Origin: Spirosoma spitsbergense DSM 19989
GTDB lineage: Bacteria > Bacteroidota > Bacteroidia > Cytophagales > Spirosomataceae
DNA length: 64,000 nucleotides
Direction: 5' to 3'
Assembly (NCBI RefSeq): GCF_000374085.1
Contig: NZ_KB893444.1
Location: 1-64,000 of the forward strand
Part shown: one piece after another, positions 316 through 14,192 of the stretch
How the letters are laid out: the number at the start of each line of letters is the position of its first letter
How positions within the stretch are numbered: position 1 is the stretch's first letter
Made by a program: the position numbers and the translations under genes
The notes under the pieces: generated by a model
Seen by the model: only the letters and a program-made list of their open reading frames with translations
Database searches by the model: none
What the model was told of the DNA's origin: nothing

Positions 316-1215
316 TTAGTTCAGTCCCCAGAGAATTATAAAAAACAGGTTTAGCCCGATGCCCGCCAGCAGGGTCATTCGCATGGCCGACCGGTAATCG
401 GCGGCATTGGGATTACGATGCACCCGACTGTACCAACGCACAAAATATACGGTAGCCGGAAGCAGGCAAAGTTGCAGGCCGTAGAAGGGAGCCTGTCCGC
501 GAAAAAAGATGTAAAAGCCAATCATAGTCAGGGCAAACAGGATAGCCGTACACCAAAACGTACCCCGAATGCCCAGCAATCGACTCATGGTCAGGTCGCC
601 CCGTCGGCCATCTTCGGCGTGTTGGTACACCTGCGTAATGGGGTAAACAGCCAGTATATTCAGCGAACAGAGCGTAGCCGCCAGCAGCAACGATGGCTGG
701 AGCAGTTCCGCCACCGGTACCTGATTAATGGCCTGATAGGTAGCCAGATAGGTTAGCCCTCCCTGGCATGAACCCACAATCAGCCAGCTTAGTACGGGGT
801 ATTTTTTCAGCCGGATACGGTCGTAGCTGTAGGCTCTGGAGATGAGTCCGTATACGAGCAGATACCCCACAAACGGCCACCCTACCCCTATGCCAAGCAG
901 CAACGCCAGCGCATCGAGACCCAGCGCCACCCACCACAAGGTTCGGTCGACGGGGGGCGGAGAGGCCAGCATCCCGATGCTGTCTTCGTCCTTATCGTAG
1001 TAGCTGTTATAGGCGTGACTGGCCGGATACAGCAACAGGTGAATAATTAGCACCACCGCCCAGGTTCGGCCCACATCCGGGTGGGCCGACTGGCTGAGGG
1101 CAAACCAGAAAACCGGCAGCAAAAAAAAAGAGAAGGGCACCCGCAGATGCAACCCTATATCCCGCAGGCTCATGGCCGACCGGATTTTTGGTGAACTATT
1201 TACGGGTGCTTCCAT
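316..1215 (-). CDS. UbiA-family prenyltransferase
   Basis: A 299-residue polytopic membrane protein of the UbiA superfamily, which transfers isoprenoid chains to aromatic or quinone-like acceptors in the inner membrane. The first Asp-rich motif is at residues 70-78 (NSYYDKDED), and an acidic DGRRGD at 202-207 sits where the second Mg-binding motif is expected. Hydrophobic helices fill the rest. The start codon directly abuts the MsrA stop, so it is the last gene of the long minus-strand run. The substrate cannot be read from sequence. A type III polyketide synthase three genes upstream suggests an aromatic polyketide acceptor, which is inference. Confidence 0.85.
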   Translation of the reverse strand: MEAPVNSSPKIRSAMSLRDIGLHLRVPFSFFLLPVFWFALSQSAHPDVGRTWAVVLIIHLLLYPASHAYNSYYDKDEDSIGMLASPPPVDRTLWWVALGLDALALLLGIGVGWPFVGYLLVYGLISRAYSYDRIRLKKYPVLSWLIVGSCQGGLTYLATYQAINQVPVAELLQPSLLLAATLCSLNILAVYPITQVYQHAEDGRRGDLTMSRLLGIRGTFWCTAILFALTMIGFYIFFRGQAPFYGLQLCLLPATVYFVRWYSRVHRNPNAADYRSAMRMTLLAGIGLNLFFIILWGLN

Positions 1216-1860
1216 TTAACTATCCAATTTTAGTTTACCATGCATGGCCTTCCTTAGTTTTTCCACCTTGGGGAGCGACACGCGTTGAATGTATGGCTGA
1301 TCGGGATGCAATTTGCAATAATTCTGGTGGTAGTTTTCGGCGGGATAGAACACCGTAAAAGGCGTTATTTCCGTTACCACCGGCCCGGCATAGTGTTTTT
1401 CGGCATTGACCCGCCGGATAGCCGCTTCGATTTCGGCTTTTTCGGCCGGGGTGCGGTAAAAAGCCACCGAGCGGTAATCGCGCCCGGCATCGGGTCCCTG
1501 CCGGTTGAGTGTAGTGGGATCGTGCCCGGCAAAAAAGGCCGTGAGCAGGTCCGTGTAGCGAATCACGTTGGGGTCATAATAGACCTGTACCGATTCGGCA
1601 TGCCCCGTTCTGTCCGTGCCTACTTCCTGATACGTGGGGTTTTTAACCGTTCCACCGGCATAGCCCGAGATAACCTCCCGAACGCCAATGAGTTGATCGA
1701 ACCCTTCTTCCTGCGCCCAGAAACAGCCACCGGCAAAGGTAGCCACTGCTTCGCCCGGTTTTAGTTTGGGCAACTTCGCCGGTGATGCATCGGGGGTTTG
1801 GCCCTGAACGTAACCCGCCAGTAAGCCGATACTGATGATAATGGATTGAATGAATTTCAT
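1216..1860 (-). CDS. msrA: Peptide-methionine (S)-S-oxide reductase MsrA, exported
   Basis: Reduces the S epimer of methionine sulfoxide in proteins. The 214-residue protein has an N-terminal signal peptide (about residues 1-21, ending VQGQ) followed by the MsrA domain with the catalytic GCFW motif at 45-48 (nucleophile Cys46). A conserved GYAGG stretch and the FYPAENYHQ segment follow. The signal peptide implies action in the periplasm rather than the cytosol. It lies 41 bp downstream of msrB and abuts the UbiA gene, so the repair pair is co-oriented and probably cotranscribed with the envelope cluster. Confidence 0.95.
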   Translation of the reverse strand: MKFIQSIIISIGLLAGYVQGQTPDASPAKLPKLKPGEAVATFAGGCFWAQEEGFDQLIGVREVISGYAGGTVKNPTYQEVGTDRTGHAESVQVYYDPNVIRYTDLLTAFFAGHDPTTLNRQGPDAGRDYRSVAFYRTPAEKAEIEAAIRRVNAEKHYAGPVVTEITPFTVFYPAENYHQNYCKLHPDQPYIQRVSLPKVEKLRKAMHGKLKLDS

Positions 1861-12720: not shown

Positions 12721-14192
12721 CAACAACGGCTGCCAGTATTTTAGTCGTGGACGACACGCCCCACAACATCAGTATTTTATTCGACGCCCTCAGCCATTAC
12801 GGCTACCAGGTACTGACCGAACGCGATGGGAAAAGTGCCATCGAACAGATACGCTACGCCCGACCCGACCTCATTTTGCTGGATGTGATGATGCCCGGCA
12901 TGGATGGTTTCGAGACGTGCCGACGCTTGAAAAGTGACCCGGATACCGCCGATATCCCCGTCATCTTTATGACGGCCATGACCGAAACCATCGATAAAGT
13001 CAACGGCTTCAACATGGGGGCGGTCGATTATATCACCAAACCGTTCCAACTGCCCGAAATGATGGCCCGCGTACAAACGCACCTCACCCTCAGGCAGTTA
13101 CAGCGCGAACTGGAGCAGACCAACGCCCAACTGGAGGAGCGCGTGGCGGAGCGAACCCAGGCATTGACCACGGCCCTGGCCCAACTCGATGCCTCGAAGA
13201 ATCAGCTACAGGCCGAAAACACTTACCTGCGCGACGAGATTAAGGAAACGGGCGGTTTTGGCGAGATTGTTACGCAGAGTCCTGCCTTTACGCCCATACT
13301 CCGAAAAGTGGAACAGGTGGCCCCTACGCCCACCACGGTGCTGATTCTGGGCGAATCCGGCACGGGTAAAGAACTCCTGGCGCGGGCCATCCATCAGCAC
13401 AGCCCGCGTAAAAACCAGCCCATGATTAAGGTAAACTGCGCGGCCCTGCCCCCTAATCTGTTTGAAAGCGAACTGTTTGGCCACGAGAAAGGCTCGTTTA
13501 CCGGGGCCGTGAATCAGAAAATCGGCCGCTTCGAACTGGCCAACAAAGGCACTATTTTTCTGGACGAGATCGGGGAGATGCCCCTCGACTTGCAGGTTAA
13601 GTTGCTGCGCGTGTTGCAGGAGGGTGAGTTTGAACGCGTGGGAGGCACCAAAACCATCAACGTGCAGGTACGGGTCATTGCGGCCACCAACCGCGACCTC
13701 GAAACCGAAGTGCAGGCCGGGAACTTCCGGGCTGATTTATATTATCGACTCAACGTTTTCCCCATCCGAAGCCTGCCCCTGCGCGACCGTAAAGATGACA
13801 TTCCGGTGCTGGTTCGCCATTTTTGCGACAAACACGGTCCGGCCATGAACCGGCGTATCGAACAGATTCCTACATCGGTTATCAACACGCTGATGGCCTA
13901 CAACTGGCCCGGTAATGTCCGGGAGCTGGAAAACATTGTGGAACGGGCGTTGATTGGTTCGCCCGGTCGTCAGCTTGAACTGGGCGACTCACCCGGCCTC
14001 GACCGAAACAGTGCCCTGGCCCGGTCGGTGTCGCCCCGCACCCTGGAAGAGTGCGAACGGGAACATATTATCTCGGTGCTGGAACAGACCAAATGGAAAG
14101 TCAGTGGCGAAAACGGAGCCGCCCGGATTCTGGACATTATCCCGACTACGCTCGAATCGAAGATGAAGAAGCTGGGCATCGTGCGGCCGTAG
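12717..14192 (+). CDS. NtrC-family sigma-54-dependent response regulator
   Basis: A 491-residue three-domain activator: a receiver with phospho-acceptor Asp56 (LILLDVMMPGMDG), a coiled-coil linker (about 125-165), an AAA+ domain with Walker A GESGTGKE at 212-219 and the sigma-54 contact loop GSFTGA at 259-264 (a Ser variant of GAFTGA), then a Fis-type helix-turn-helix at the C terminus. The start at 12717 gives an ATGA overlap with the kinase; an in-frame ATG at 12699 is less likely. It should open sigma-54 promoters, most plausibly the one at 8611-8625. Confidence 0.93.
   Translation: MTTTAASILVVDDTPHNISILFDALSHYGYQVLTERDGKSAIEQIRYARPDLILLDVMMPGMDGFETCRRLKSDPDTADIPVIFMTAMTETIDKVNGFNMGAVDYITKPFQLPEMMARVQTHLTLRQLQRELEQTNAQLEERVAERTQALTTALAQLDASKNQLQAENTYLRDEIKETGGFGEIVTQSPAFTPILRKVEQVAPTPTTVLILGESGTGKELLARAIHQHSPRKNQPMIKVNCAALPPNLFESELFGHEKGSFTGAVNQKIGRFELANKGTIFLDEIGEMPLDLQVKLLRVLQEGEFERVGGTKTINVQVRVIAATNRDLETEVQAGNFRADLYYRLNVFPIRSLPLRDRKDDIPVLVRHFCDKHGPAMNRRIEQIPTSVINTLMAYNWPGNVRELENIVERALIGSPGRQLELGDSPGLDRNSALARSVSPRTLEECEREHIISVLEQTKWKVSGENGAARILDIIPTTLESKMKKLGIVRP

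Follow-up and report, generated by a model that had tools for sequence, protein, structure and literature searches.

A putative sigma-54-controlled envelope gene set in Spirosoma spitsbergense and its wider conserved core

At the start of contig NZ_KB893444.1 of Spirosoma spitsbergense DSM 19989 (assembly GCF_000374085.1), 12 co-oriented minus-strand genes (316-8476) diverge from a propeller hybrid histidine kinase and an NtrC-type activator on the opposite strand, raising the question of whether such a mixture of repair, membrane and polyketide genes constitutes a single regulated system and, if so, what it does. We analyzed positions 1-64,000 of this contig, hereafter the window, together with related genomes. 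A first-pass annotation made from the letters alone had read the 14 genes as a possible single sigma-54-controlled envelope redox and lipid system; its observation is confirmed and its interpretation is partly supported. The gene set (hereafter the island) is real and conserved in a relative, and it is very likely regulated as a unit. Its core is a wider cluster present in at least 3 phyla, of which the type III polyketide synthase (PKS) and the UbiA-family prenyltransferase are an optional part.

Conservation and gene content of the island

Spirosoma terrae KCTC 52035 carries the same 14 genes in the same order and orientation, with 58-84% amino acid identity, which makes the set more than a chance assembly. 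It also shares the TANGO2, ATP-grasp, LysE and hydrolase genes that extend the locus past position 14192, with 1 extra open frame of 180 amino acids between the regulator and TANGO2. Beyond this species (and, for part of the set, Larkinella) the order is reshuffled. The genes of the locus are as follows.

316..1215, minus strand: UbiA-family prenyltransferase (PF01040, E 3e-21; both Asp-rich motifs by eye)
1216..1860, minus strand: MsrA (PF01625 and TIGR00401 above cut-off; signal peptide by eye)
1902..2396, minus strand: MsrB (PF01641 and TIGR00357 above cut-off; signal peptide by eye)
2415..3626, minus strand: type III PKS of the island clade (Pfam; Cys, His and Asn align with PKS18; trees)
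3634..4194, minus strand: YceI-like protein (PF04264)
4341..5075, minus strand: conserved exported protein, possible outer-membrane barrel (no Pfam match; adjoins YceI in other loci)
5123..5599, minus strand: DM13 lipoprotein (PF10517; lipobox by eye; C145 in 19/19)
5725..6492, minus strand: DUF1223 protein, thioredoxin-like CSSC (PF06764; CSSC in 6/6)
6554..7003, minus strand: YHS2 (NF041384)
7018..7431, minus strand: DoxX membrane protein (PF07681; alignment)
7444..7962, minus strand: DinB-like protein with five conserved His (sub-threshold Pfam, alignment, AlphaFold model, Foldseek)
7976..8476, minus strand: YHS1, first gene of the minus-strand unit (PF04945, NF041384)
8803..12720, plus strand: propeller hybrid histidine kinase (Reg_prop, Y_Y_Y, HisKA, HATPase_c, Response_reg)
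12699..14192, plus strand: NtrC-type sigma-54 activator (PF00158, E 6e-76; REC; Fis HTH; GSFTGA loop by eye)
14377..15159, plus strand: TANGO2-family protein, Cys2 (PF05742)
15137..16309, plus strand: ATP-grasp ligase-like protein (weak profile matches; model and fold search)
16303..16929, plus strand: LysE-type transporter (PF01810)
16941..17798, plus strand: alpha/beta hydrolase (PF00561)

All 14 open frames of the first-pass annotation are present and their families stand, although 2 labels, DinB-like and "barrel", lack a passing Pfam match. Pfam and NCBIfam agree on UbiA, MsrA, MsrB, the type III PKS, YceI, DM13, DUF1223, both YHS proteins (NF041384), DoxX, the hybrid kinase and the regulator. 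The corrected starts of YHS1 and DinB are most likely 8476 and 7962, respectively. Gaps along the minus-strand run are mostly short, as originally described, measuring 0, 41, 18, 7, 146, 47, 125, 61, 14, 12 and 13 bases from UbiA to YHS1. The 4 additional plus-strand genes (14377-17798) are close or overlapping and begin 184 bases after the regulator. Signal peptides, lipoboxes or membrane helices are visible by eye in most minus-strand products, the PKS and DinB being without.

Since the DinB-like protein falls under the Pfam cut-off (E 0.02), its label rests on an AlphaFold model (pLDDT 95), the nearest structures to which are DinB/YfiT proteins (Foldseek, best E 6e-4). The Pfam scan of the "barrel" protein (4341..5075) returned no match, and its placement as a possible outer-membrane barrel is a guess based on sequence. 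For the ATP-grasp model (pLDDT 89), Foldseek ranked Ddl ligases, cyanophycin synthetases and bifunctional glutathione synthetases nearest, with identities of 10-19%. Across the window and the loci of the second DoxX search described below, one Cys is kept in the YHS proteins (C105, 97% of 67), Cys2 in TANGO2 (97% of 32), C145 in DM13 (19/19), both Cys of the CSSC motif in DUF1223 (6/6), five His in DinB (30/30) and conserved Lys, Glu and Asn positions in the ATP-grasp protein (28/28). The proteins look active, a property that does not name their substrate.

With DoxX as the anchor, matches were found in 64 of the 149 related genomes, and 17 DoxX-centred regions were analyzed. YHS and DinB genes are present in 15 of the 17 and an NtrC-type gene also lies alongside in 11, with PKS in none; gene order departs from that of the window, LysE and the hydrolase usually lying on the minus side and the Msr genes changing place. 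A second DoxX search, from which the best 80 loci were kept (8 of them from genomes already in the earlier DoxX- or PKS-centred sets), recovered YHS1 in 43, DinB in 43, ATP-grasp in 39, TANGO2 in 32 and YHS2 in 27 loci. DM13 and LysE (21 each), the kinase (18), NtrC (14) and YceI, the barrel and the hydrolase (11 each) follow, with MsrA (9), MsrB (8), PKS (8), DUF1223 (5) and UbiA (1) being rarer. At least 3 of YHS, DinB, TANGO2 and ATP-grasp co-occur in 37 of these best 80 loci, namely in 32/59 from Bacteroidota, 4/6 from Verrucomicrobiota, 1/3 from Acidobacteriota and 0/3 from others, with phyla assigned from the organism names of the records. YceI and the barrel occur together in 10 of the 80, always on the same strand and at most 50 bases apart in 9/10. 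The first-pass annotation had counted PKS and UbiA among the genes of the set; the core is a wider cluster to which they are optional.

The record Flavobacterium sp. SUN052 contains 2 island loci with DoxX and regulator proteins 67-78% identical to those of Spirosoma; this record may carry a wrong name or represent a mixed assembly.

Candidate sigma-54 control of the island

The regulator combines REC, Sigma54_activat AAA+ and Fis-type helix-turn-helix (HTH) domains in one chain, all above cut-off, and contains a GAFTGA-type loop, GSFTGA, read by eye in the translation. RpoN is encoded in the genome (PF04552, E 7e-55). Regulator homologs with E <1e-150 are present in 18 of the 149 genomes (10 candidates scored per genome) and are 59-84% identical outside the source genome. 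The sensor part of the kinase varies, being a propeller in the window and in locus L085 and PAS-GAF in relatives (L074 and L080), beside the same regulator. A hybrid kinase usually requires an HPt step; no HPt protein for this one was identified. In 3 loci (L115, L116 and L117, from genomes G004, G021 and G019, respectively), an island-free copy type of the regulator (71-75%) lies beside 2 tandem kinase-like matches.

The candidate regulatory elements are the following.

8526..8541, minus strand: sigma-54-like site TGGCACGTTGTTTGGC upstream of YHS1 (GG instead of GC at -12)
8747..8762, plus strand: sigma-54-like site TGGAATGAGAATTGTT upstream of the kinase (7.2 bits, weak)
14330..14345, plus strand: sigma-54-like site AGGTACACGCTTTGCC upstream of TANGO2 (10.9 bits)
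8634..8654, no strand: palindrome of 21 bp at which the NtrC-type regulator may act (candidate enhancer; distance to the YHS1 site, which lies downstream, ~110 bases)

The TANGO2 site fits the GG-N10-GC consensus, the YHS1 site has GG for GC and the kinase site GT for GC. Of 13 loci, 12 show a TGG-N9-TTG-type site ~27-33 bases upstream of TANGO2 (one start is miscalled), and similar sites precede YHS1 and the kinase. An 11-bit cut-off missed most of the conserved sites, as their -12 element deviates, and the best score in the -200/+60 region was instead compared with those of 259 control regions, using an approximate sigma-54 matrix. Best scores exceed the controls at the 3 unit heads, YHS1 (n = 15, p 2e-5), TANGO2 (n = 13, p 2e-6) and the kinase (n = 13, p 2e-5), although these p-values are inflated because the loci are related. 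Among 12 other gene groups, 11 gave p >0.1. A consensus scan of the whole window revealed no excess of sigma-54 matches (57 found versus 72.7 expected), and matches in the single genome were therefore not used as evidence. Another candidate, 8625-8611 (TGGCACGGGCGGGGC), was dropped, as it is not kept at unit heads in the upstream regions of relatives.

Of 23 loci scanned, 12 have the palindrome in the interval that separates YHS1 from the divergent unit; it spans 21 bases in every case, with 18-23 allowed. Its pattern, with at most 1 mismatch, occurs at 10 places in the genome versus 5 for the reversed control pattern. There are 2 exact matches; 8634-8654 alone is near-perfectly palindromic and lies beside regulator genes, the other (C172:32445) being rejected as poorly palindromic. 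In a set of 61 loci with a YHS neighbor, 19 with the regulator and 42 without, the exact palindrome is found in 11/19 and 2/42, respectively (Fisher p 1e-5, with the pattern derived from part of the tested loci), and the palindrome with at most 1 mismatch in 15/19 versus 4/42. The YHS1 promoter motif, a pattern fixed after all loci had been inspected, is found in 17/19 versus 7/42. The genomes of the 2 regulator-less loci with the exact palindrome (G021 and G004) encode a close regulator homolog elsewhere (73% and 75%), beside 2 other kinases. In 6 regulator loci fetched later, the TANGO2 site is present in 5/6 and the YHS1 site in 6/6.

Several observations weigh against sigma-54 control of the units, besides the relatedness of the loci and the circularity of the palindrome pattern noted above. 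The exact palindrome is missing in 8 of the 19 regulator-bearing loci, including S. terrae and 3 Larkinella loci, which lack it even at 1 mismatch, and in the 6 loci fetched later it is exact in 1/6 and within 1 mismatch in 3/6. The YHS1 site has GG at -12, the site before the kinase is weak in the window, and the hydrolase group, an inner gene, scored p 0.013. The units could be independent of sigma-54, with the regulator acting elsewhere and ordinary promoters driving the genes. Sigma-70-like matches at 8626-8597 and 14297-14324 and the lack of excess in the window-wide sigma-54 scan would fit such an arrangement, yet the total of sigma-70-like matches is at chance (9 found versus 9.7 expected), and the enrichment of sites at unit heads, their co-occurrence with the regulator and the single near-perfect palindrome of the genome, adjoining the regulator genes, argue against it, making this alternative improbable. 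Sigma-54 control, as first proposed, is instead supported by comparison, with RpoN in the genome and with sites and a candidate enhancer where one regulon would need them. We are fairly confident of the regulon architecture as a whole. The first-pass annotation is corrected to a regulon of at least 3 transcription units, with 4 more genes.

Polyketide synthase and prenyltransferase as a lineage-specific addition

The catalytic Cys, His and Asn of the PKS align with those of PKS18 and relatives. PKS matches were found in 129 of the 149 related genomes, and wider regions were taken for 40 places. In 38 of these 40, the PKS lies outside any island, with UbiA divergent beside it in 28/38. The 38 stand-alone loci contain YHS1 once, NtrC once, kinase matches 3 times and hydrolase matches twice, and in all of them DinB, TANGO2, ATP-grasp, DM13, YceI and Msr genes are absent. 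Stand-alone PKS loci in most genomes of the same genus (such as L036-L058) contain PKS and divergent UbiA as a conserved pair, with glycosyltransferase-like and TerC-like neighbors (families guessed by eye).

Near DoxX, a PKS is found in 8 of the best 80 loci, 3 of which are 24% matches discounted as island PKS; the only island loci in which UbiA was seen are those of the window, S. terrae and a third Spirosoma (G035). In the latter, UbiA, PKS, YceI, barrel and DUF1223 genes lie together, and the same contig carries DoxX, the YHS proteins, DM13, DinB, the kinase and the regulator at a distance of ~16-25 kb. A tree of 42 PKS groups the sequences of the window, S. terrae, G035 and Larkinella rosea in a single clade (support 100/100). 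A separate clade holds 18 stand-alone PKSs, of which 16 belong to the same genus. Distant PKSs of 2 Emticicia and 1 metagenome-assembled genome (MAG) are beside YceI/barrel in an island, with unsure tree positions on long branches. The PKS-UbiA pair is, judging from these comparisons, a lineage-specific addition to the gene set.

In S. terrae, a methyltransferase and a geranylgeranyl-reductase-type FAD oxidoreductase come after UbiA; in G035, the methyltransferase does. No ortholog of the S. terrae oxidoreductase was found in the source genome, the best match (42%) being at C205. That place (C205:38542-41383) combines a distant PKS-like gene (30%) with the matching FAD oxidoreductase, also of the geranylgeranyl-reductase type.

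Possible function and competing explanations

The island may operate as one regulon of at least 3 transcription units, YHS1 through UbiA, kinase-NtrC and TANGO2 through hydrolase. The hybrid kinase would signal to the NtrC-type regulator, which would bind the palindrome at 8634-8654 and open sigma-54 promoters at the 3 unit heads, including that of its own operon, resulting in positive feedback. The signal sensed is most likely an oxidant or electrophile. The products would act at the envelope, where exported MsrA and MsrB would repair oxidized methionines, and DoxX, the YHS proteins and DM13 (each of the latter 2 with one conserved Cys) and DUF1223 (CSSC) would constitute or supply an electron relay, based on thiols or metals, that crosses the inner membrane. 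DinB, TANGO2 and ATP-grasp might synthesize or process a small compound of thiol or acyl-amide type, which LysE may export, and in the Spirosoma lineage the type III PKS and UbiA would add a membrane lipid of alkylphenol type, with the YceI-barrel pair handling it. Computation establishes the gene content, the order in S. terrae, the recurring core, the enrichment of sites, the co-occurrence of site and regulator and the ancestry of the PKS, whereas phosphotransfer, DNA binding, promoter use, the signal and every biochemical role in this scheme are inferred. Taken as a whole, one regulon for envelope repair with an added polyketide lipid is the best explanation available, and we regard its chances as evenly balanced. 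Envelope oxidative repair as the function, which draws on the RpoE2-type MsrAB/DoxX regulons, comes slightly below that, and a prenylated redox lipid as the PKS-UbiA product is unlikely.

The locus could alternatively combine 2 neighboring modules, one of them a stress island and the other a PKS-UbiA pair for biosynthesis that came to lie in the island's operon with no shared function. This agrees with the location of PKS-UbiA elsewhere in 38/40 PKS-centred loci and the lack of PKS in most island loci, but the island PKSs of the window, S. terrae, G035 and L. rosea are one clade, their order with MsrB, YceI and barrel is kept in 3 of the 4 clade members, and distant PKSs also lie beside YceI/barrel in the Emticicia and MAG islands, so that we consider independent modules rather unlikely. 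Slightly less likely still is a metal or haem island, in which YHS, DoxX, TANGO2 and DM13 would serve to bind or transport copper, iron or haem, Msr repair being secondary. The Caulobacter sigma-F regulon (DUF692-DUF2063-DoxX) is reported to respond to chromium and cadmium, not to oxidants (PMC3511200), which keeps a metal role alive, and the bacterial TANGO2 homolog HtpA is reported to traffic haem (PMC10470608). The haem role is contested (PMC12782551, PMC13044924), TANGO2 has been argued to be an Ntn hydrolase (PMC13044924), and no metal exporter, metallochaperone or haem enzyme was found among the window genes scanned. The response of sigma-F to metals also counts against the best explanation given above, as do the scarcity of Msr genes (MsrA or MsrB in 11/46 loci with at least 2 core partners) and the absence of the core from 9/9 Balneolaceae/Rhodothermia DoxX loci among the best 80. 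Finally, the PKS-UbiA lipid may well be a structural or antibiotic-tolerance lipid rather than a redox carrier, a view to which we give nearly even chances: Streptomyces griseus alkylquinones influence beta-lactam sensitivity and many bacterial alkylresorcinols are described as structural (PMC10896814), although PKS-UbiA is co-operonic with redox repair genes and S. terrae adds the methyltransferase and FAD oxidoreductase, as in quinone-forming clusters.

Relation to known systems

The nearest working parallel to the proposed envelope repair regulon, by analogy, is the RpoE2/SigE regulon. In Haemophilus influenzae, RpoE2 is reported to control periplasmic MsrAB and a DoxX cluster under HOCl, both of which likewise belong to the hypochlorite-linked set of the Neisseria SigE regulon; the H. 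influenzae rpoE2 mutant itself is not HOCl-sensitive in vitro (PMC7907618). Periplasmic Msr repair and a DoxX membrane protein would be placed under one envelope-stress regulator in both cases, whereas the regulator there is an extracytoplasmic function (ECF) sigma factor with its anti-sigma factor, neither of which was found among the window genes scanned (316-19557), and the DoxX partners are COG3220, COG3219 and COG3767 rather than YHS, DinB, TANGO2 and ATP-grasp. The Caulobacter sigma-F regulon, in the part reported, similarly includes DoxX in a small stress regulon, but neither DUF692 nor DUF2063 is present among the window genes scanned.

Like the hybrid two-component systems (HTCS) of Bacteroides, the kinase joins a Reg_prop/Y_Y_Y sensor to HisKA, HATPase and REC domains within a single polypeptide. 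In HTCS, the C-terminal part of the hybrid kinase is an AraC-type HTH; the profile scan found no HTH in the kinase here, the regulator being a separate NtrC-type protein. Membership in HTCS, ECF-type MsrAB/DoxX and DUF692-DoxX systems was rejected on the lack of AraC HTH, ECF sigma/anti-sigma and DUF692/DUF2063, respectively.

Type III PKS clusters are reported to yield alkylresorcinols (PMC10896814) and polyketide quinones (PMC9927152), and one planctomycetal PKS cluster adjoins genes for a lipoprotein and a lipid/isoprenoid-binding protein (PMC10896814). The island resembles the SrsA, PkQ and planctomycetal clusters in its PKS with conserved catalytic residues and, in S. terrae, an operonic methyltransferase and FAD oxidoreductase, and differs in uniting UbiA and Msr with an NtrC-type switch. 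A sigma-54 regulon survey describes sigma-54-dependent chaperone genes in Bacteroidota and leaves Spirosoma unmentioned in its main text (PMC12316311). No description of this gene set was found in the open-access papers searched, subscription papers being outside the search.

The set may represent a variant of an envelope-stress-type regulon, in which the core may deserve more attention than the PKS. YHS, DoxX, DinB-like, TANGO2 and the unnamed ATP-grasp proteins are 5 poorly understood families, and since they recur together across phyla, results for any one of them can help to interpret the rest; the TANGO2 gene is, in addition, a disease gene in humans, and its function is disputed. With one regulator, one candidate enhancer and 3 candidate promoters, the Spirosoma version provides a means of switching the set on, and it would connect a type III PKS with a regulon of the envelope-stress type instead of ordinary secondary metabolism. 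More speculatively, YHS-DoxX-DinB-TANGO2-ATP-grasp might be an undescribed envelope pathway of at least 3 phyla that makes a small thiol- or acyl-amide carrier and uses it to pass electrons of the membrane on to repair enzymes in the periplasm. Spirosoma and its close relatives would have connected this pathway to a dedicated sigma-54 switch, and some of them would have gained a lipid of polyketide-prenyl type as another carrier, bound to the membrane; we consider this scenario unlikely.

Surroundings of the locus

The window starts at the contig end, and bases 1 to ~95 belong to a repeat, probably an insertion sequence, with 13 other near-identical copies in the genome; the sequence downstream of UbiA is consequently hidden in the window. 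On the other side, 77 bases past the hydrolase and on the same strand, genes for a DUF4254 protein and a family 9 glycosyltransferase occupy window positions 17876-19557.

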